Shown: positions 16,616 through 40,033 of the stretch, piece by piece
Numbering within the stretch: position 1 is the stretch's first letter
How the letters are laid out: the number at the start of each line of letters is the position of its first letter
Assembly (NCBI GenBank): GCA_017450485.1
Contig: JAFSTN010000044.1
Span: 1-64,000, forward strand
Reading direction: 5' to 3'
DNA from: Lachnospiraceae bacterium
GTDB lineage: Bacteria > Bacillota > Clostridia > Lachnospirales > Lachnospiraceae
Length of the DNA stretch: 64,000 nt
Program-made: the position numbers and the translations under genes
The notes under the pieces: model-generated
What the model was told of the DNA's origin: nothing
What the model saw: only the letters and a program-made list of their open reading frames with translations
Databases searched by the model: none

Positions 16616-16970
16616 GATCTGTATCACTTATATAAATGCGAACCCACATCACAAACATGCGCCGGGTGATTCCCGTCCGCAATCCTGCGTGTTTCGCAAA
16701 CAGCATAACCGAACTTATATTTTAGCATTTTCGGGTGGGGAAGACAAGGGAGGGGGAGGAAACAAATGCTTGTATTAAATGATCGCATATGTTACATTCA
16801 TAGAGCATCTACTTCCACGGATGCATCGAGGAAGCTTCACTTCCTCCGGAGGTATTAACCTCTGTAATCCAATAACACCGATAATCGTAACCACGGCATC
16901 GCACCATGGATCTGTAATTGTATGTCCTTGAGTGTATGTCGGAACATTGCACACCTGTAGGAGGTATTGT
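16616..16970. other. Divergent intergenic region with structured leader
   Basis: The region separates prfA (minus) from the Rpn-type gene (plus). On the plus strand it holds two adjacent short hairpins just before the nuclease gene leader: GAGGAAG/CTTCCTC near 16830-16850 and GAGG/CCTC just after it. No tRNA, riboswitch or confident promoter pair could be fixed. A purine-rich stretch (GGGAGGGGGAGG) lies near 16750. Confidence 0.5.
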
Positions 16971-18008
16971 ATGAAAAAGAAATCCATATCTGTCAGTAAC
17001 ATTTTCGGTGATCCCAGATCATCGGAAGATGTCTTATATGACATCCACTCGGACCCAAAAACCTTGGATCTGTTCAATTCATTTTCCGAAGCCGACCGCG
17101 AACGCATCATGCTATTCCTTGAGGGAAAACACAGTCTGCAGATTCTGAATGATGTGTTCTTCCAAAAGGTGATGCGTCCGTATCCGCCATACGACCGTAT
17201 CGAATCGCTATTATCCGCCATACTCGGCGAACCGGTCAAGGTGGAAGCCAACCTGCCCCGCGAAGGCTCCAGGATATCCGAAACGGGCAGTCAGGTTGTC
17301 ATGGATATCATCGTCAAGCTGAGGGATCAGTCGATCACCACCATAGAAATGCAGCGAATAGGATATCTCTTTCCGGGAGAACGTACCAACTGTTATCTGG
17401 CTGACATGATCATGCGTCAATATAACGAACTTCGTCCGAGACGTGGCGGAGACTTCAGCTATAAGGATATGCGGCCTGTACGTCTGATCATCTTCATGGA
17501 GCGGAGTTCCGCCGAGTTTAAAGCAGTTGCACCTGAATACATCCACACAAGGGAAATCTCATACAGCACCGGAGCCGGGATAAATGACCTTGAGAACGTG
17601 GTGTATTTCTCGCTTGACACATATCGTGACTTGCCACACAATGAAATCAATACAAAGCTTGATGCATGGCTGTCATTCTTCAGTTATGAAGACCCTGAGC
17701 ATGTAATCGCTCTGATAGACCGGTATCCTGAGTTTCTGCCTTTGTATCAAGATATAGCTGCATTAAGATCAACCCCGGAGGAGGTGATGGGAATGTTCTC
17801 TGAAGCACTCAGAATAATGGATCGTAACACCACCAAATACATGATTGATGAGCTAAATCAAGAACTCGCTGACAAAGATAAGGCTCTCGCTGAAAAAGAT
17901 CAAGCACTCGCTGACAAAGATCAGGCTCTCTCTGAATTATCGTCGGAGAACACCCTTTTCAGGGAGTTACTGGAAGCAAATGGGATAACAGTACCCGCAA
18001 AACAATAA
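16971..18008 (+). CDS. Rpn-family PD-(D/E)XK nuclease / putative transposase
   Basis: A 345-residue protein of the PD-(D/E)XK 'Rpn/transposase' superfamily, whose studied members are DNA nucleases that promote RecA-independent recombination. The core pattern is seen in VVMDIIVKLR (Asp) and TTIEMQR (Glu-x-Gln). The middle has FVKAxE-like helices (AWLSFFSYEDPEHV). The C-terminus has three seven-residue coiled-coil repeats based on ALA(D/E)KDQ. The ATG is chosen for its AGGAGGTATTGT leader; a frame extends upstream to 16932 without such a site. A partial decayed copy of its 3' end lies at 18622. Confidence 0.85.
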   Translation: MKKKSISVSNIFGDPRSSEDVLYDIHSDPKTLDLFNSFSEADRERIMLFLEGKHSLQILNDVFFQKVMRPYPPYDRIESLLSAILGEPVKVEANLPREGSRISETGSQVVMDIIVKLRDQSITTIEMQRIGYLFPGERTNCYLADMIMRQYNELRPRRGGDFSYKDMRPVRLIIFMERSSAEFKAVAPEYIHTREISYSTGAGINDLENVVYFSLDTYRDLPHNEINTKLDAWLSFFSYEDPEHVIALIDRYPEFLPLYQDIAALRSTPEEVMGMFSEALRIMDRNTTKYMIDELNQELADKDKALAEKDQALADKDQALSELSSENTLFRELLEANGITVPAKQ

Positions 18009-18621: not shown

Positions 18622-18738
18622 ATGGATCGTAATACCACCAAATACATGATTGATGAACTAAATCAAGAACTCGCCAGCAAGGATCAAACTATCGCTGAAA
18701 AAGAAGCAGGCTCTCGCTGACTTATCGTCGGAGATTAC
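18622..18738 (+). pseudogene. Decayed 3' fragment of the Rpn-type gene
   Basis: The bases closely match the 3' part of the gene at 16971-18008: MDRNTTKYMIDELNQELA..., then KD repeats. A small length change near 18710 (AAAAAGAAGCAGG in place of AAAAAGATCAGG) shifts the frame so that the fragment stops at TGA 18718-18720. There is no ribosome site. It is therefore a relic of a tandem duplicate. The toxin-antitoxin locus lies between the intact gene and this relic. Confidence 0.8.
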
Positions 18739-18741
18739 CAT

Positions 18742-18892
18742 CAACTCTTCTTAATCTCGCTATTTTGACGGCTTTAAGCAGAATCAAACGTGATAATCAT
18801 CTATAACCATGACCGAAATCCCCTTGATTCCGAAGCAATAATGTGTTAGTTTTTACTTAAAGTCATTATTTTTTTATGATTAAGAAGAGTTG
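18742..18892. promoter_or_regulatory. Self-specific inverted repeat and promoter of the first ATPase
   Basis: A perfect 15-bp inverted repeat has arms CAACTCTTCTTAATC (18742-18756) and GATTAAGAAGAGTTG (18878-18892), about 120 bp apart. The core promoter TTTACT (18852-18857), 17-bp spacer, TATGAT (18875-18880) ends inside the right arm. The right arm thus covers the transcription start and runs up to the ribosome site. This suggests an operator or looping site for self-control. Confidence 0.6.
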
Positions 18893-18904
18893 AGGATCAT
18901 TTTC

Positions 18905-20323
18905 ATGACAGGTCGAGATAAAGAATTAGCAATTCTGCGCAATGCCATAACAGACGACTATTCTCATTTTATCGCGGTTTACGGCCGCCGAAGAGTGGGC
19001 AAGACATTCCTGATAAGAGAAGCATTTAATTACAGATTCACTTTTCAACACGCCGGTTTATCCAAAGGTGGGCTTGATGGACAGATTTTCGAATTTGAAT
19101 CCTCAATTAAAGATGCCGGAGGCACTCCTAACGGCAAACGAAAAAACTGGCTTGAAGCATTCGAAGATTTAAAAGATATAGTCAGAGCATCAACAGAAAA
19201 GAAAAAGATAATCTTTATTGATGAACTGTCTTGGATGGATACTCAGAACGGAGATCTCCTAGTTGCATTGGAGAACTTCTGGAATGGATGGGCGAGCGCC
19301 AGAAGGGATATAGTATTGATCGTATGTGCATCCGCAACATCCTGGATGATGTCTAAGGTGATCCATAACAAGGGTGGTCTATACAACCGTCTCACCGAGC
19401 AGATTCACTTAAAACCCTTCACGCTGGCAGAGTGTGAGGATTATGTCAAAGCACGCGGGCTGGCGCTTACCAGAAACCAGATCCTGCAGTACTATATGAT
19501 CTTCGGTGGAGTTCCCTACTATTGGGATTTCCTCGAAAAAGGGTTCAGTATACCTCAAAACGTTGACAGAATCCTTTTTGCTGCAGATGCCCCTCTCAAG
19601 GACGAATATAAATACCTGTATGCATCCGTATATAAGAATCCAACGGTGCATATAACCATAGTAGAAACTCTGGGCAAAAAGAAGGCGGGGATGACAAGGG
19701 AAGAGATCATCAGCAATTCCGGACTGATCAACTCCGGAGATCTGACCGTCAAACTTGATGAACTAGAAAGCTGTGGATTCATCAGGAAATACTATTCCTA
19801 TGGAATGAAAAAGAAAAATGCCGTTTATCAACTGATCGATAACTTCACTCTGTTCTATTACCAGTTTATGAATAACAATCCCATGGATGAGCATTTCTGG
19901 TTTAACCAGATCAATACTCCAGCCGTAAACACATGGCAGGGGTTGGCTTTCGAACGGGTATGTATGGAACACATCCTGCAGATAAAACAGAAACTGGGCA
20001 TATCCGGCATATACACAGATATCAACTCCTGGTATGGCAAAGAGAATAAGGAAAAAGGAATACTCGGATCGCAGATAGACCTGCTCATCGTAAGAAAAGA
20101 TCAGGTGATAAACCTGTGTGAGATGAAATACTCCAATGCGGAATACATCATAACAGCAAATGATGACGAAAGCATTCGAAGAAAAACTGAGGATCTGATC
20201 CACGCAACCGGGACAAAATATGCTATCTATCCCACTATGATCACCACATACGGAATCGCCGATAATGCATACGCCGGAAGTATTCAGTCTGTCGTCACAT
20301 TAGATGATCTGTTTGGACGGTAG
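18905..20323 (+). CDS. AAA+ ATPase with PD-(D/E)XK-like C-terminus (ATPase_2/DUF234 type)
   Basis: A 472-residue STAND/AAA+ type ATPase. Walker A is in YGRRRVGKTFLIRE near residue 25, Walker B in KIIFIDELSWMD near 105, and a sensor-like VLIVCASATSWM follows. The middle is winged-helix-like (GMTREEIISNSGLINSGDL). The C-terminus has GSQIDLLIVRKDQVINLCEMK, an Asp...Glu-x-Lys pattern of the DUF234 nuclease-like fold. The cellular role of the family is not established. The ATG at 18905 has GAGG 9 bp upstream; the frame could open at a TTG at 18890. It is a paralogue of the gene at 22109. Confidence 0.85.
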   Translation: MTGRDKELAILRNAITDDYSHFIAVYGRRRVGKTFLIREAFNYRFTFQHAGLSKGGLDGQIFEFESSIKDAGGTPNGKRKNWLEAFEDLKDIVRASTEKKKIIFIDELSWMDTQNGDLLVALENFWNGWASARRDIVLIVCASATSWMMSKVIHNKGGLYNRLTEQIHLKPFTLAECEDYVKARGLALTRNQILQYYMIFGGVPYYWDFLEKGFSIPQNVDRILFAADAPLKDEYKYLYASVYKNPTVHITIVETLGKKKAGMTREEIISNSGLINSGDLTVKLDELESCGFIRKYYSYGMKKKNAVYQLIDNFTLFYYQFMNNNPMDEHFWFNQINTPAVNTWQGLAFERVCMEHILQIKQKLGISGIYTDINSWYGKENKEKGILGSQIDLLIVRKDQVINLCEMKYSNAEYIITANDDESIRRKTEDLIHATGTKYAIYPTMITTYGIADNAYAGSIQSVVTLDDLFGR

Positions 20324-20428
20324 TCATCTCTTATAGAAATACACATCATACGTATATGCCGCGTTCCAGTAGTTAGGAAGCGCGCAGTGTGCAAATTTCA
20401 CATCGCAGTCATGTCGCTCTGCGAAAGC
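20324..20428 (-). pseudogene. Duplicated 3' end of the neighbouring methyltransferase gene
   Basis: About 95 bases here match almost exactly those at 23528-23625, the 3' end of the methyltransferase gene (codons for the terminal ...AYTYDVYFYKR). Identity stops near 20420, and no complete gene lies upstream. In both copies the segment directly follows an ATPase gene stop, so the junction ATPase end/methyltransferase end is present twice. This marks a duplication or recombination event. Confidence 0.85.
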
Positions 20429-20438
20429 TCACATAGTA

Positions 20439-21746
20439 TCACAGAAACATCGCCATATATAGCGGAAGCGTGATAATCCGCCCTTCCTCTCCGACATTTC
20501 CGTCAACAAGTTTATAAAATGTCTTTATATCTGTTTTAGCTTGTACTATTTGATTCAGCGAAGCAGCCCTCGCATTACCGCTTTTGACCTCTACCGGGAT
20601 CACATTTCCATCCTTTTGTATTATGAAGTCTAATTCCCTCTTGGTCGTCTCATTCTTATAGAAATACAATGAATAGCCTTTTTTGATCAGAATATCCGCA
20701 ACGGCGCATTCATAGATTCCACCCTTGGTATTTCCTGCCAGCGTATTCTCTATAATGTGCTGCTTCAGGCCGAAATCCTTCATTGCGACAAGCAACGACA
20801 GATCACATGTATATGCCCGGAAAAAATCATCCCTGGCATAATCATCCAGATCATAGCGTATATTTGTCACCAACCGACTAAGCTTAATAATGTCGGCCCT
20901 GATCAGCCATTCGATACTGGAATAATACTTTTGAGCCCTGCCCCCATGCTCAACTTCCTTATACTGAAACTTATGGTTCTCTTTATCCAGAAGCTGTGCT
21001 GCAATGGACAGGTAACACTTCTCAGCCTTAACCTTCTCATTCGCATCCGCATAGTGAGCTATATCATATTGATATCCCTGCAGGATCTCCCTCTGAATCC
21101 TGTCGGCAATCCTGTAATCTCCCGATTCCATATATCCGGCGACTACTTCCGGCATACCGCCTACAGCTATATACTCGCGCAAAAGATGCATCATTCTCTC
21201 ATGAATCGCCGGAGGAACGCTCTGTTTCTTCAGGAAAAATTGCCGCAGAGAGTCGATCATCTCCCCATCCATGCCTGATGCCCACAGGAACTCTTCGAAA
21301 TCCAGTCCGTACATCTTCAGATACTCTACGTATCCGACAGGATAAGATGATGCACGATGATAGTCTATCCCCAGCAGAGAACCCGATGCTATCACATCAT
21401 ATCTGCCATCCTCAGTCCAAAACTTCAATGAAGTAATCGCCTCCGGGCACTCCTGTATCTCATCCAGAAAAACAAGTGTCTCTCCCGGCACAAAATCCAC
21501 TTGCGGATACCGGAATCGGAGCCCCATGATCATAGTCTCCACATCCAGATCCGATGCAAACACCTCTATAGCCGATGGTGTCTCCTTGAAATTGATTTCC
21601 AGAACAGAGCTGTAGTTTTGACGGCCAAACTCCCGGATCGCATAGGTCTTGCCAACCTGTCTTGCCCCCTGTACCACCAGGCTTTTTCTGCCGGGAGAAG
21701 ATTTCCATTTATTCAGTTCTTCCAGAATTTTACGTTTTAGGATCAT
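20439..21746 (-). CDS. AAA_14/DUF4143 ATPase
   Basis: A 435-residue ATPase of the AAA_14 plus DUF4143 type. Walker A is GARQVGKTYAIRE near residue 27, Walker B ETLVFLDEIQECPEA near 95, and VIASGSLLG follows. The C-terminal DUF4143 part ends in a nuclease-like ELDFIIQKDGNVIPVEVKSG (Asp...Glu-x-Lys). Function of the family is not established; expansion in anaerobes is common. The start is the ATG at 21746 rather than the TTG at 21776 because the latter lies inside the operator repeat. It is convergent with the first ATPase and divergent from the third. Confidence 0.87.
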   Translation of the reverse strand: MILKRKILEELNKWKSSPGRKSLVVQGARQVGKTYAIREFGRQNYSSVLEINFKETPSAIEVFASDLDVETMIMGLRFRYPQVDFVPGETLVFLDEIQECPEAITSLKFWTEDGRYDVIASGSLLGIDYHRASSYPVGYVEYLKMYGLDFEEFLWASGMDGEMIDSLRQFFLKKQSVPPAIHERMMHLLREYIAVGGMPEVVAGYMESGDYRIADRIQREILQGYQYDIAHYADANEKVKAEKCYLSIAAQLLDKENHKFQYKEVEHGGRAQKYYSSIEWLIRADIIKLSRLVTNIRYDLDDYARDDFFRAYTCDLSLLVAMKDFGLKQHIIENTLAGNTKGGIYECAVADILIKKGYSLYFYKNETTKRELDFIIQKDGNVIPVEVKSGNARAASLNQIVQAKTDIKTFYKLVDGNVGEEGRIITLPLYMAMFL

Positions 21747-21751
21747 GTTGT

Positions 21752-21817
21752 TTCCAAAATGTTGATTCGTGTGCAAAAAATAATTCCAAAATGTTGATGT
21801 GTCAACATTTTGGAATT
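21752..21817 (-). promoter_or_regulatory. Three-part operator over the promoter of the DUF4143 ATPase
   Basis: A perfect 16-bp inverted repeat has arms AATTCCAAAATGTTGA (21782-21797) and TCAACATTTTGGAATT (21802-21817), with a third half-site TCCAAAATGTTGA at 21752-21764. On the minus strand TTGACA (21800-21805), a 17-bp spacer and TATTTT (21777-21782) form a promoter whose spacer is the left arm. The third half-site lies in the leader just before the start codon. This is the pattern of an autorepressor site. Confidence 0.65.
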
Positions 21818-21863
21818 ATTATATAGCATTGTTCGCTGTTTTTCAACGGAAACTCTATATGTT

Positions 21864-21908
21864 AGCTTCCTGAAGCTTAGCTTCCTGAAGCTTCCTGAAG
21901 CTTCCTGA
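21864..21908 (+). repeat. Short tandem repeat AGCTTCCTGA
   Basis: Four copies of the 10-mer AGCTTCCTGA, the first separated from the second by AGCTT and the other three in direct tandem. It lies in the intergenic region between the divergent second and third ATPase genes. No function can be inferred. Confidence 0.8.
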
Positions 21909-21991
21909 AAAATTAACTCTCGTCACCAGTATTCGACTCCAAATTCCGATGACAGCACTCTTACAAATATGCCGATTGCATAGCAGAGTGC

Positions 21992-22076
21992 GATAACTCC
22001 CCAAAACTGCCCGCCGTGGTCATGTTTTGGGGAGTTATATCATGCTATTGACATGATAACTCCCCAGTTTTATGAT
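21992..22076 (+). promoter_or_regulatory. Three-part operator over the promoter of the third ATPase
   Basis: A perfect 15-bp inverted repeat has arms ATAACTCCCCAAAAC (21993-22007) and GTTTTGGGGAGTTAT (22024-22038). A third half-site GATAACTCCCCAGTTTT lies at 22055-22071. The promoter TTGACA (22048-22053), 17-bp spacer, TATGAT (22071-22076) has that third half-site as its spacer. A protein bound there would block RNA polymerase, so self-repression is a likely reading. Confidence 0.65.
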
Positions 22077-22108: not shown

Positions 22109-23527
22109 ATGATAGGAAGAAAAGAAGAAATCCATATGCTTGATAACGCTCTCTCCAGCGGAAGGCCGGAGTTTGTTGCGATATACGGCCGTAGAAGGGT
22201 CGGAAAAACATATTTGATCAAGGAATACTTCAATAATACCTTTTCCTTCTATGCAACCGGTGTACAGAATACTAACACAAAGCAACAGCTCAGATTATTT
22301 TATGAGGCACTGAAAAAAAACGGCGACCAATCCTCTTCTATTCCCAAAGACTGGTTTGAAGCCTTTTCAAGACTGGAAAAACTGCTGTCTGCCGAAAGCG
22401 TAACAAGAGAGTATAAGTCAAATCGAAGAGTAATTTTTCTCGATGAAATACCATGGATGGATACTGCAAAGTCCGGATTCAAAAGCGCTCTCGAATATTT
22501 CTGGAACAGCTGGGGGTCATCTCAAAAAGATCTGATGCTGATAGTATGCGGATCCGCAACATCTTGGATCATTAATAACATTGCAAAAGATACAGGTGGT
22601 TTCTATAACAGATTGACTCGTCAAATCCATTTGTTGCCCTTTACATTGGAGGAAAGTGAAGAACTGCTGATTTCCAACGGAATACAGATGACTCGAAAAC
22701 AAATCATAGAATGTTATATGGTATTTGGCGGAATTCCGTATTATCTGAATTACATCAGTCCCGGCAACAGTCCCGCTCAAATAGTGGAAATGCTGTTTTT
22801 TAAAGAGAACAGTCCCTTAAAAAATGAGTTCCGTCAACTTTTCTCTTCACTTTATAAAAACTCAGACAAGTACATCTCTATCATCAAGGAGCTGGCAAAA
22901 ACTAAAAGCGGAATAACCAGAGCCGACATTACTGCAAGCAAGAAGACCGTCACAGGAAAAGATCTCACTCAATGCCTGGAGAGCCTTGAACAATGCGGTT
23001 TTATCCGTAAATACCACGATTTCACAAGAGCAGTCAATGGTTGCTTCTACCAATTGATCGACCCACTATGCCTTTTTCACTTAACATTTATAGAGTCGGG
23101 TAAAACAGGATCTTGGTTGGACATGATAGGTACTCCCGGATATAACACATGGTGCGGTCTTGCGTTCGAGAAAGTATGCCTACAACACATACCTCAGATT
23201 AAAAGAGCTTTGGGAATATCCGGTGTATATACTCAGGCGTTTTCCTGGAAAAGCAAAAAGACAACACCCGGGGCACAAATAGACCTGCTGATCGACAGAA
23301 AAGATGACGTGATAAACATATGCGAGATAAAGTACTCAAAGGAAGAATACGCCATAGATGCAAATTACGAAAAAAAGCTGATTCACAAGATCGAAACACT
23401 GAGAGCAGAATCCCACACGTCAAAATCTCTGTGGCTTACCATGATAACTCTTTCGGGATTAAAGAAAAACGAATACTCCGGATCCGTGCAAGCAGAACTC
23501 ACAGCAGATGATCTGTTTGGATGGTAG
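22109..23527 (+). CDS. AAA+ ATPase with PD-(D/E)XK-like C-terminus, paralogue of the first
   Basis: A 472-residue protein that aligns over its whole length with the gene at 18905: Walker A YGRRRVGKTYLIKE near residue 25, Walker B RVIFLDEIPWMD near 115, LMLIVCGSATSWI, and C-terminal GAQIDLLIDRKDDVINICEIK. Both end in ADDLFGW/LDDLFGR. The ATG at 22109 has AAAGGA 11 bp upstream; a TTG at 22100 is less likely. Its stop abuts the stop of the methyltransferase gene with no space. The two paralogues have diverged in protein but their 3' ends and the DNA beyond are nearly identical. Confidence 0.86.
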   Translation: MIGRKEEIHMLDNALSSGRPEFVAIYGRRRVGKTYLIKEYFNNTFSFYATGVQNTNTKQQLRLFYEALKKNGDQSSSIPKDWFEAFSRLEKLLSAESVTREYKSNRRVIFLDEIPWMDTAKSGFKSALEYFWNSWGSSQKDLMLIVCGSATSWIINNIAKDTGGFYNRLTRQIHLLPFTLEESEELLISNGIQMTRKQIIECYMVFGGIPYYLNYISPGNSPAQIVEMLFFKENSPLKNEFRQLFSSLYKNSDKYISIIKELAKTKSGITRADITASKKTVTGKDLTQCLESLEQCGFIRKYHDFTRAVNGCFYQLIDPLCLFHLTFIESGKTGSWLDMIGTPGYNTWCGLAFEKVCLQHIPQIKRALGISGVYTQAFSWKSKKTTPGAQIDLLIDRKDDVINICEIKYSKEEYAIDANYEKKLIHKIETLRAESHTSKSLWLTMITLSGLKKNEYSGSVQAELTADDLFGW

Positions 23528-24292
23528 TCATCTCTTATAGAAATACACATCATACGTATATGCCGCATTCCAGTAGTTAGGAAGCGCGCAGTGTGCAAAT
23601 TTCACATCGCAGTCATAGCGTTCCGCGATATCTATGAACATACTCTTCGGATAGAAAAGATGCTGCGTATCCTTATACTTCTCATCATAGTTCTCTACCA
23701 CCGACCGACGATAGTTCAGAAAGGCCTCTTTCTTCGCCAGATCATGCACATCAAATATTCCAACTGAATGATCAGCCTTCTCTATCATCCGGGTGATGAC
23801 TTCTTCGCCATATGCCAGATCATCGAAGTACTGGAATATGCTTCTGGAAAAAACACAGTCATACTTGATATCCGTCTTAAGGTCTCTGGCTTCAGCGCTG
23901 TATAACTCCACAGCATTCTGCACATAGCGTCTGGCTACCTCTACATACGCCTCACTGTAGTCCATACCTCCCAATCGGAACTCAGGATTCAGAGTAGACA
24001 GGTAGTACAGATACGGTCCGGTGGAACAGCCAACATCGAAAAAGGACTTGGGTTGGTATTCCGGATCTGTGGAAAAAGATAATTCGCGGAGGAAGATGTT
24101 GAATTGATCAACAAACGCATTAAATCGTGAAAGAGAGGGATAACCGCCATGATAATTTGGATCCGTAAATGCCTTAAGCTCCATAAATACCTCAGCAAAA
24201 TCTTCCTCTCCGGACAGCTTAATATCATCCAGAACAGTGCTCTTACTCCATATGCTTTTCCAGCCGTTTATATGGCCAGCGGTCTCACTCAT
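23528..24292 (-). CDS. SAM-dependent class I methyltransferase
   Basis: A 254-residue Rossmann-fold methyltransferase. Motif I is SFFDVGCSTGPYLYYL near residue 87, followed by GGMDYSEAYVEVARR and CVFSRSIFQYFDDL. It most resembles free-standing methyltransferases of polysaccharide clusters; the substrate is unknown. The start has AGGAGTGAATT before the ATG. It is the last gene of the 13-gene glycan operon, 27 bp after the epimerase gene. Its final ~95 bases are duplicated at 20324. Confidence 0.88.
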   Translation of the reverse strand: MSETAGHINGWKSIWSKSTVLDDIKLSGEEDFAEVFMELKAFTDPNYHGGYPSLSRFNAFVDQFNIFLRELSFSTDPEYQPKSFFDVGCSTGPYLYYLSTLNPEFRLGGMDYSEAYVEVARRYVQNAVELYSAEARDLKTDIKYDCVFSRSIFQYFDDLAYGEEVITRMIEKADHSVGIFDVHDLAKKEAFLNYRRSVVENYDEKYKDTQHLFYPKSMFIDIAERYDCDVKFAHCALPNYWNAAYTYDVYFYKR

Positions 24293-38794: not shown

Positions 38795-39892
38795 TTATCG
38801 GAGCCTCACATAGTTCTCCAGTCTAGGCAGGCTAAACCTCAGGCATCCGTAGATTTTTCCATCCAGAATACCGTCGTTTATCAGCCTTTCCCTATATGTG
38901 GCGAATGTCGCAGATGACATATTCACCTTGTTTCTCACATCCGCAACTTTAACTATATCAGACTCATCATCACTTTCTCTGATCAGTGAAGCAATTGCTC
39001 TTAAGACCTCAATGTCTTTTGCGGATAGTTCTTCAAATATCTTATCATATGCAAACTCCGCCAAAATACTATCCAGCTCATTATAAATATCCTTGATCTG
39101 AGACTGAGTCAATTCAGCACTCCTGCTATACGCATTCCAATAGACATAGCCTATAGCCTGATATGCGAGGGAATAGCCCTTGCTCTCAAAAGCAAGCCTG
39201 TCCGCTTCGCCTGTGTCTAACTTCAGTGTCTTCTGATAATCCGCACTGATAGCGGTGATGTTCAGCATCTCTATCTCATTTACTTTGGCCCGGTATAGAA
39301 ATGTCAACGACGGTTTATTCTTTATTCTGTCAATGTTTTCCTTTAATCCTGTCATCAGAACATATATATCATAATCTGCATTGGCATACGAAGACAGCGC
39401 ATGCGAAAACCGCGCCACATTATCGCTGTACGTTATTTCATCTATCGTCACCAATACCTTCCGGTTTTTCTTTTTCAGAACTTCCAGCATCATCTCAAGC
39501 GCATCATCGTCACTGTATGCGACCAGTTCCGCATTCTCGACTTTTACACCCAATCCCATTATTGACAGATCAATCTTCGCCTTTATGAACAGCGACTTAA
39601 TCTCAGGAATACGATACAGTTTATTTGCCACTGAATGGATCAGATCATCTTCCGGATTAATATCTACAGCTATCCAATCCTCCATAGCATTGATCTTGTT
39701 GCGGATATCTCCCAGCATGACCGTTTTACCGGAGCCTCTTACCCCTGTTATAAACATTCCCCTGTATGTCGGAACCTTTCTGACATAGTTGTTGATTATA
39801 AATGACGTGATAGCCTGCCGTTCTATAAATCTGGGCGGTATATAGCTGAACTGCAACGTATATGGATTATCTTCTTCTCTGAAATAGCTCAT
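38795..39892 (-). CDS. AAA+ ATPase with C-terminal winged helix (ORC/STAND-like)
   Basis: A 365-residue ATPase distinct from the other three. Walker A is MFITGVRGSGKTVMLGD near residue 46, Walker B KVLVTIDEITYSD near 148, and VLMTGLKENIDRI follows. The C-terminal 80 residues look like a winged helix (VADVRNKVNMSSATFATYRE), so it may bind DNA. There is no nuclease-like domain. Its upstream DNA holds seven phased copies of an 8-bp motif next to its TATAAT box. It lies immediately before the glycan operon on the same strand and could share transcripts with it. Confidence 0.85.
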   Translation of the reverse strand: MSYFREEDNPYTLQFSYIPPRFIERQAITSFIINNYVRKVPTYRGMFITGVRGSGKTVMLGDIRNKINAMEDWIAVDINPEDDLIHSVANKLYRIPEIKSLFIKAKIDLSIMGLGVKVENAELVAYSDDDALEMMLEVLKKKNRKVLVTIDEITYSDNVARFSHALSSYANADYDIYVLMTGLKENIDRIKNKPSLTFLYRAKVNEIEMLNITAISADYQKTLKLDTGEADRLAFESKGYSLAYQAIGYVYWNAYSRSAELTQSQIKDIYNELDSILAEFAYDKIFEELSAKDIEVLRAIASLIRESDDESDIVKVADVRNKVNMSSATFATYRERLINDGILDGKIYGCLRFSLPRLENYVRLR

Positions 39893-39930: not shown

Positions 39931-40033
39931 TATTATATCACTTCCTTCCATAACTCTCCATAACTTCCAAATTATTCCATAACTTTCCATAACCTCAAAA
40001 ATCTTCCATAAGTTTCCATAACTCTCCATAACT
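39931..40033 (-). repeat. Phased direct repeats CCATAACT over the fourth ATPase promoter
   Basis: Seven copies of CCATAA(C/G)(T/C) start at 39948, 39958, 39977, 39987, 40006, 40016 and 40026, so the steps are 10, 19, 10, 19, 10 and 10 bp, close to whole turns of the helix. On the minus strand a TATAAT box lies next to the last copy and the -35 region falls in the repeats without a consensus hexamer. This looks like a cooperative binding array (activator, repressor or iteron-like). Confidence 0.75.

Follow-up and report, generated by a model that had tools for sequence, protein, structure and literature searches.

Three AAA+ ATPase genes in a 64,000-nt stretch of a Lachnospiraceae bacterium genome (assembly GCA_017450485.1, contig JAFSTN010000044.1, positions 1 to 64,000; hereafter the window) each carry their own repeats directly upstream, and in one of the two families involved the winged helix of the ATPase very probably reads the array of its own gene, judging from the sequence comparisons below. 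Genes 1 and 3 belong to the family PDC-S27 and gene 2 to PDC-S01. Arrays of this kind recur upstream of relatives in both families, and a pairing between sites and protein residues is seen in PDC-S27 only. Our overall interpretation, to which we assign a probability of roughly 0.78, is that private arrays are read by the winged helix of the adjacent gene's product, that the ATPase assembles there, and that the nuclease gene is thereby autoregulated.

The first-pass annotation of this DNA placed the three gene starts at 18905, 20439 and 22109. The first and last hold; gene 2 lies on the minus strand (21746 to 20439), so that 20439 is its 3′ end and not its start (Table 1). In Pfam, genes 1 and 3 both match ATPase_2 and DUF234 (for gene 1, PF01637 at 3.8e-13 and PF03008 at 9.1e-6), and gene 2 matches AAA_14 (1e-23) and DUF4143 (3.9e-26). 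PADLOC models match all three over approximately their full length: PDLC04984 (PDC-S27) matches gene 1 at 9e-194 and gene 3 at 2.5e-194, and PDLC04786 (PDC-S01) matches gene 2 at 3.4e-146. The AlphaFold2 model of gene 3 (predicted local distance difference test score, pLDDT, 94.3; 76 sequences) is ordered as AAA+, winged helix and C-terminal alpha/beta part, with the recognition helix at residues 284-295 and the wing strands at 299-303 and 312-316. The gene 2 model (pLDDT 89.8; 15 sequences) has the same domain order, with a helix at 271-283 followed by strands at 287-293 and 304-313.

Across an alignment of 76 PDC-S27 proteins, K33, T34, D112, E113, D392, E406 and K408 are invariant, and the last three fall within the C-terminal alpha/beta part of the gene 3 model. 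We take the spacing of D392, E406 and K408 to be that of a PD-(D/E)XK motif, and read the invariant set as AAA+ and PD-(D/E)XK catalytic residues. Since ATPase and nuclease residues are both kept, the PDC-S27 protein is probably more than a repressor. Two of the three proteins had initially been credited with PD-(D/E)XK-like endings, which is too few: all three appear to end in such a nuclease, gene 2 on the basis of weak YraN/Cas4-like matches and of an excerpt of PMC12988326.

Table 1. Genes, repeats and residues of the locus; positions are those of the window.
Feature	Positions	Strand	Basis
Gene 1, PDC-S27 ATPase, ATPase_2 + winged helix + DUF234/apparent PD-(D/E)XK, 472 aa	18905..20323	+	Pfam, PADLOC
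Gene 1 half-site CAACTCTTCTTAATC	18742..18756	+	repeat search
Gene 1 weak candidate for a decayed half-site, 30-bp step from the first, 6/15 mismatches	18772..18786	-	sequence comparison
Gene 1 second half-site, perfect and inverted, close ahead of the start codon	18878..18892	-	repeat search
Gene 2, PDC-S01 ATPase, AAA_14 + winged helix + DUF4143/apparent PD-(D/E)XK, 435 aa	20439..21746	-	Pfam, PADLOC, AlphaFold2
Gene 2 third copy, direct repeat 32 bp from arm 1, 2/16 mismatches, just before start codon	21750..21765	.	
Gene 2 repeat arm 1, AATAATTCCAAAATGTTGA	21779..21797	.	repeat search
Gene 2 repeat arm 2	21802..21820	.	repeat search
Gene 3 half-site 1, ATAACTCCCCAAAAC	21993..22007	+	repeat search
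Gene 3 half-site 2, 31-bp step, 16 bp between arms	22024..22038	-	repeat search
Gene 3 sigma-70-like promoter, TTGACA-17-TATGAT	22048..22076	+	read from sequence
Gene 3 half-site 3, 4 mismatches, inside promoter spacer	22056..22070	+	
Gene 3, PDC-S27 ATPase, 472 aa	22109..23527	+	Pfam, PADLOC, AlphaFold2
Gene 3 winged helix, residues 252-316	22862..23056	+	secondary structure of AlphaFold2 model
Gene 3 residue 282 (Thr), codon; paired with half-site base 10 by co-variation	22952..22954	+	
Gene 3 residue 310 (Asn, in the wing), codon; paired with half-site base 12 by co-variation	23036..23038	+	

A perfect repeat of its own had been proposed upstream of each gene, and the repeat search found all three. 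For genes 2 and 3, the observed repeat was reached by 0/100 dinucleotide shuffles of the 220 bp upstream. The gene 1 arms are 121 bp apart, which exceeds the 60-bp spacer limit of that test (the p of 0.70 obtained there belongs to another, weaker repeat); with free spacing within 300 bp, the pair was reached by 0/2000 shuffles. Repeat lengths, originally given as 15, 16 and 15 bp, are correct for genes 1 and 3, gene 1 reaching 16 bp when one further flanking pair is counted, and the gene 2 repeat is instead a perfect 19-bp inverted repeat with arms separated by 4 bp. Upstream of gene 3, the third half-site fills the 17-bp spacer between TTGACA (22048-22053) and TATGAT (22071-22076). In the genome assembly, which is 91% complete, no perfect copy of the gene 1 or gene 3 half-site was found away from the gene it belongs to. 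A short tandem repeat, TTAGCTTCCTGAAGC, lies between genes 2 and 3 at 21862-21901.

The first-pass annotation had proposed looking upstream of homologues, where the repeats might have been absent or unconserved. We searched PDLC04984 in 200 and then 397 same-family genomes (for the 200-genome set, the matches listed), and added the best 80 of at least 580 relatives from 84,980 species genomes, retrieved with an alignment of 31 proteins as query. After removal of identical duplicates (L085, L086 and L165) and start-less genes (L172 and L206), 138 PDC-S27 genes were counted, an array being an inverted repeat with a score of at least 10 within 220 bp upstream. One of the duplicates, L165 from a record labelled Lachnospiraceae, has a protein identical to that of L081 from a same-family genome, which makes Lachnospiraceae the probable host family. 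Such a repeat precedes 113/138 PDC-S27 genes compared to 19/205 neighbouring genes, and this check did not refute the idea of private sites. The proportions are 50/61 against 3/33 in same-family genomes and 63/77 against 16/172 in other genomes, which include Lachnospiraceae, Bacteroidales, Kiritimatiellae, Lentisphaerae and Synergistaceae; the lone Treponema gene (L233) falls below the cut-off with a score of 9. An earlier set of 33 strong PDC-S27 genes gave 27/33 upstream and 0/33 within their own coding sequence. On viral contigs, where about half of the PDC-S27 copies are distant, 7/17 have a repeat compared to 6/78 neighbours. Arrays lie close to their own start codon. The genome to which the window belongs also encodes L004, a DUF4143 protein outside the analysed set.

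PDC-S27 sites are built on a common 15-bp frame, ATAATTnGCnAAAAC, whose core varies. The motif was fitted to 113 genes with p at most 0.05 and a score of at least 9, leaving out L149, L160 and L084, a different criterion from that behind the 113/138 above. The fit gives ATAATT-n-GC-n-AAAAC(T), with C at base 9 in 94% and convergent arms in 90/113, and the spacer often shows a run of A or T when upstream regions are read by eye. As one frame accommodates both, gene 1 CAACTCTTCTTAATC and gene 3 ATAACTCCCCAAAAC, previously described as unrelated, are two versions of the same site, though only 5/15 of their bases agree. Among the 95 genes used below for co-variation, 40 have two sites, 22 have three and 28 have four; opposite neighbouring half-sites most commonly stand at steps of 30 bp (51 cases) or 31 bp (64). 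Half-site copies number 232 in 29.4 kb of own upstream DNA and 41 in 440.5 kb elsewhere in the studied loci. Between pairs of genes at 60-80% protein identity, half-sites are 69-71% identical and flanking DNA is 33-39% identical.

Among 35 more distant PDC-S27 relatives (L006, L034, L035, L037-L042, L087-L092 and L113-L132), 15-bp direct steps are found in 11/35 and short-spaced palindromes in several, and together these apparently form a third array layout. Mobile elements also carry PDC-S27 genes with fitting arrays: L362 in Wolbachia phage WO, L357 on Butyrivibrio fibrisolvens plasmid pNP243 and L360 on an Emticicia plasmid.

Residue-base co-variation was computed in 95 of the 113 motif-fit genes, namely those scoring 9 or more for the motif and longer than 400 aa. 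Two pairs stand out in the corrected scores, residue 282 with base 10 (17.0) and residue 310 with base 12 (12.7), the next being residue 121 with base 1 (7.1). At the first pair, Asn accompanies T in 18/19 genes and Ser accompanies C in 17/17; at the second, Lys accompanies A in 39/40 and Arg accompanies T in 23/27. In the gene 3 model, residue 282 sits just before the recognition helix and residue 310 in the wing. Gene 1, outside the 95-gene set, has Asn and Lys with bases T and A, matching the code.

In a tree from which residues 250-330 were excluded, 40 changes are counted at residue 282 and 32 at base 10. In path-disjoint pairs, base 10 differs in 22/29 when residue 282 differs and in 2/32 when it is equal, and the corresponding figures for base 12 and residue 310 are 14/26 and 5/31. 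With 39 genes for training and 56 for testing, residue 310 predicted base 12 correctly in 53/56 (majority guess 39) and residue 282 predicted base 10 in 33/56 (majority guess 19), each being the best predictor of all columns for its own base. The reverse direction gave 34/39 for residue 310 (majority guess 27) and 22/39 for residue 282 (majority guess 16). Co-variation at two residues, maintained through many switches on the tree, is what leads us to conclude that the PDC-S27 winged helix very probably reads its own array.

Two further ideas about this code were tried and rejected. We saw no selection for insulation between paralogues of the same genome. The half-site identity of 11 within-genome pairs departs by -0.02 from that of all pairs at comparable protein identity, and sites are shared (93% and 100%) by the two pairs whose proteins are more than 75% identical. 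Nor did we see arms-race hypervariability of the reading residues: ranked by changes per column, residue 282 stands at the 73rd percentile and residue 310 at the 66th, and the mean number of changes is 30.0 for the winged helix, 24.2 for the AAA+ part and 28.5 for the nuclease part.

PDC-S01 relatives were collected by searching PDLC04786 in 200 same-family genomes, among the matches listed. Their arrays consist for the most part of direct repeats, with 32-33 bp as the usual step. The nearest relatives of gene 2 that we found (L096, L101 and L102; 66-67% identity) carry the core CCAAAATGTTGA or a near copy at 33-bp steps. Of 51 PDC-S01 genes, 41/51 have a direct repeat at a lag of 31-34 upstream, compared to 1/51 in coding sequence and 12/283 in neighbours. 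In a larger set, which leaves out L313 (N-run), a direct repeat at lag 30-35 is present in 89/130, with 79 of these at 32 or 33; lags of 41-46 gave 4/131. On viral contigs, all 16/16 PDC-S01 copies (14 distinct) have an array, compared to 1/16 in the control. The repeat is not the same across genes, many versions having an A-tract and then TG, and by eye similar recognition helices often accompany similar sites, which may reflect common descent. The pairing of each ATPase with a private site, as first suggested, is strongly supported for genes 1 and 3 by recurrent arrays, conserved half-sites and residue co-variation; for gene 2 it extends to the array, with residue-level pairing undetected.

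In the mechanism we propose, each gene of these candidate defence families encodes an AAA+ ATPase joined to a winged helix (wHTH) and, at the C-terminus, an apparent PD-(D/E)XK nuclease, and has directly upstream an array of usually two to four private sites at a pitch of about three DNA turns (30-31 bp and alternating in PDC-S27, 32-33 bp and direct in PDC-S01). The PDC-S27 wHTH very probably reads its own array, residue 282 pairing with base 10 and residue 310 with base 12. Reader and site would drift together, so that each gene has a private array. Several ATPases may assemble on the array and set the expression of their own gene; this autoregulation, most likely repression, would keep the nuclease scarce until its release, which a phage could trigger and after which the nuclease might cut DNA. 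Autoregulation is the likeliest purpose of the array, and self-repression by the ATPase is plausible. The closeness of arrays to the start codon, the lack of other perfect copies in the genome assembly and the half-site in the gene 3 promoter spacer argue for autoregulation.

Several observations weigh against this interpretation. No inverted repeat scoring 10 precedes 25/138 PDC-S27 genes, a distant relative on contig 43 of the same genome (L006) lacks an array (score 6, p 0.90), and the perfect gene 1 sites are 121 bp apart rather than 16. The residue 282 code is degenerate, Asp occurring with G or T, and its exact transfer is modest (33/56 and 22/39). Fifty-nine loci lie outside the 95, and 38 of them have no confident pair; at the remaining held-out loci the base 12 code holds in 14/18, which is not clearly above a guess of the commonest base, and the base 10 code holds in 18/20 if G or T is allowed for Asp. 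Within this held-out set, L247, L248 and L362 share one upstream site and are not independent. Eight held-out loci come from Wolbachia phage WO, two faecal phage clones and plasmids of Butyrivibrio, Segatella, Phocaeicola, Emticicia and Malaciobacter; four of them have a confident pair, of which three fit both positions and L364 misfits base 10. Co-variation in PDC-S01, run under two anchorings, yielded no residue-base pair standing out as in PDC-S27. Finally, overlap of half-sites with promoters in PDC-S27 genes is not above random placement (48/74, 51.9 expected), and of 34 strong promoters, 5 have the whole array upstream and 7 have all of it downstream. We rejected the idea that repeats sit systematically on promoters, as the overlap does not exceed random placement.

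The absence of promoter enrichment and the mixed placement leave room for another role, in which the array is no operator but a platform for loading or parking, where an ORC/Cdc6-like assembly holds or licenses the nuclease and effects on transcription are secondary. Such a platform would fit the preference of both families for steps of roughly three turns, the resemblance of the fold to SSO1545 and PABY2304 and then to CED-4/NLR and ORC/Cdc6, and the invariance of ATPase and nuclease positions in 76 proteins, which is beyond the needs of a plain repressor. Arrays close to their own start codon look operator-like, however, and assembly on the array is a prediction. We consider a platform possible, with the odds clearly on the lower side.

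We think it improbable that the sites are nuclease targets, or mobile-element ends that mark insertion or cutting. PD-(D/E)XK domains, the 166-bp 3′ duplication next to genes 1 and 3, and the presence of family members on plasmids, phage records and viral contigs would suit that idea, but half-site copies are concentrated upstream of their own gene, and the genome assembly (91% complete) holds no further perfect copy as a target. The idea gained no support here, where no systematic test and no search for target-site duplications or empty sites was made. Still less likely is a role in RNA, with the repeats forming leader hairpins in the manner of an attenuator or a type III antitoxin. Many of the inverted repeats could fold, and all sites are downstream of the promoter in 7/34 strong-promoter genes; yet direct repeats predominate in PDC-S01 arrays, 5/34 strong-promoter genes have the whole array upstream of the promoter, and the bases co-vary with a DNA-binding domain. 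Chance, for which one could cite the AT-rich intergenic DNA where short repeats are common (a score of 10 before 19/205 neighbouring genes), is rejected as having next to no probability by the dinucleotide shuffles and the coding-sequence and neighbour-gene controls.

Structure comparison of the gene 3 model gave 2QEN and 2FNA as the best solved relatives, followed by CED-4/NLR proteins and ORC/Cdc6; a PDB sequence search with genes 1 and 2 had no match at E 0.01. The two best, PABY2304 (2QEN) and SSO1545 (2FNA), are archaeal ATPases with chains of 350-352 residues, and the alignment ends before the C-terminal nuclease part; we know of no cognate DNA site for either. ORC/Cdc6 initiators share the AAA+ plus winged helix fold but are without a nuclease, and their sites mark origins and are common to a lineage, whereas here each gene has its own version. 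Private operator or iteron arrays that stand beside a gene and are read by its own protein occur with iteron-autoregulated Rep proteins and with the controller (C) proteins of restriction-modification systems. These proteins are not AAA+/PD-(D/E)XK, and their step lengths and half-site frame differ.

PADLOC lists PDC-S27 and PDC-S01 as candidates for phage defence (preprint by Payne et al. 2024, cited as reference 15 in PMC12988326). Excerpts of PMC12988326 describe them as an ATPase fused to PD-(D/E)XK, rank PDC-S01 as the fourth most common prokaryotic defence system, report PDC-S27 to be abundant in archaea, and speak of abundant single-gene candidates with validation pending for most; an excerpt of PMC13356809 reports both families as abundant in rumen genomes. 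A related order, AAA+ then PD-(D/E)XK, is given for DUF1703 in part of a 2007 study (PMC1913061). Our genes agree with the PADLOC families in their full-length model matches and ATPase-PD-(D/E)XK fusion. The portions of PMC12988326 and PMC13356809 that deal with these families say nothing of an array upstream, a DNA-reading domain or a specificity code. Judged by titles and the opening lines of abstracts, a description of the array or the code was not found in open-licence literature, which does not establish its absence from print; in that literature one paper names DUF4143, and none names two of five Pfam families together.

The window has some further features. A 166-bp duplicate (86%) at 20264-20429 and 23468-23633 comprises the 3′ ends of genes 1 and 3 together with the 3′ end of the methyltransferase gene at 23528-24292; the remnant behind gene 1 suggests duplication or recombination. 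A PDDEXK_2 gene (Pfam) lies at 16932-18008, and an apparent decayed copy of its 3′ end (28-bp match, 93%) precedes gene 1 at about 18633-18735. A fourth ATPase gene at 38795-39892 on the minus strand matches AAA_14 (3.8e-7) and weakly PDC-S01 (1.2e-5). Upstream of it, at 39946-40033, are seven direct copies or near copies of TTCCATAACT, another private array.

A private array, a preferred pitch and a two-residue code together provide a concrete and cheaply testable handle on which DNA these ATPases bind, which residues they use and why paralogues differ, and the families offer a natural series of diverged DNA readers for studying how specificity evolves. A broader and rather doubtful extension is that PDC-S27 and PDC-S01 represent a general class of self-addressed nucleases, with private arrays at a family-constant pitch of about three turns, ORC/NLR-like assembly, a simple two-residue code through which reader and site change in step, and array occupancy as the off switch of the nuclease. 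If this were true, loss or titration of the array, for example through phage takeover of host DNA, would arm the nuclease.

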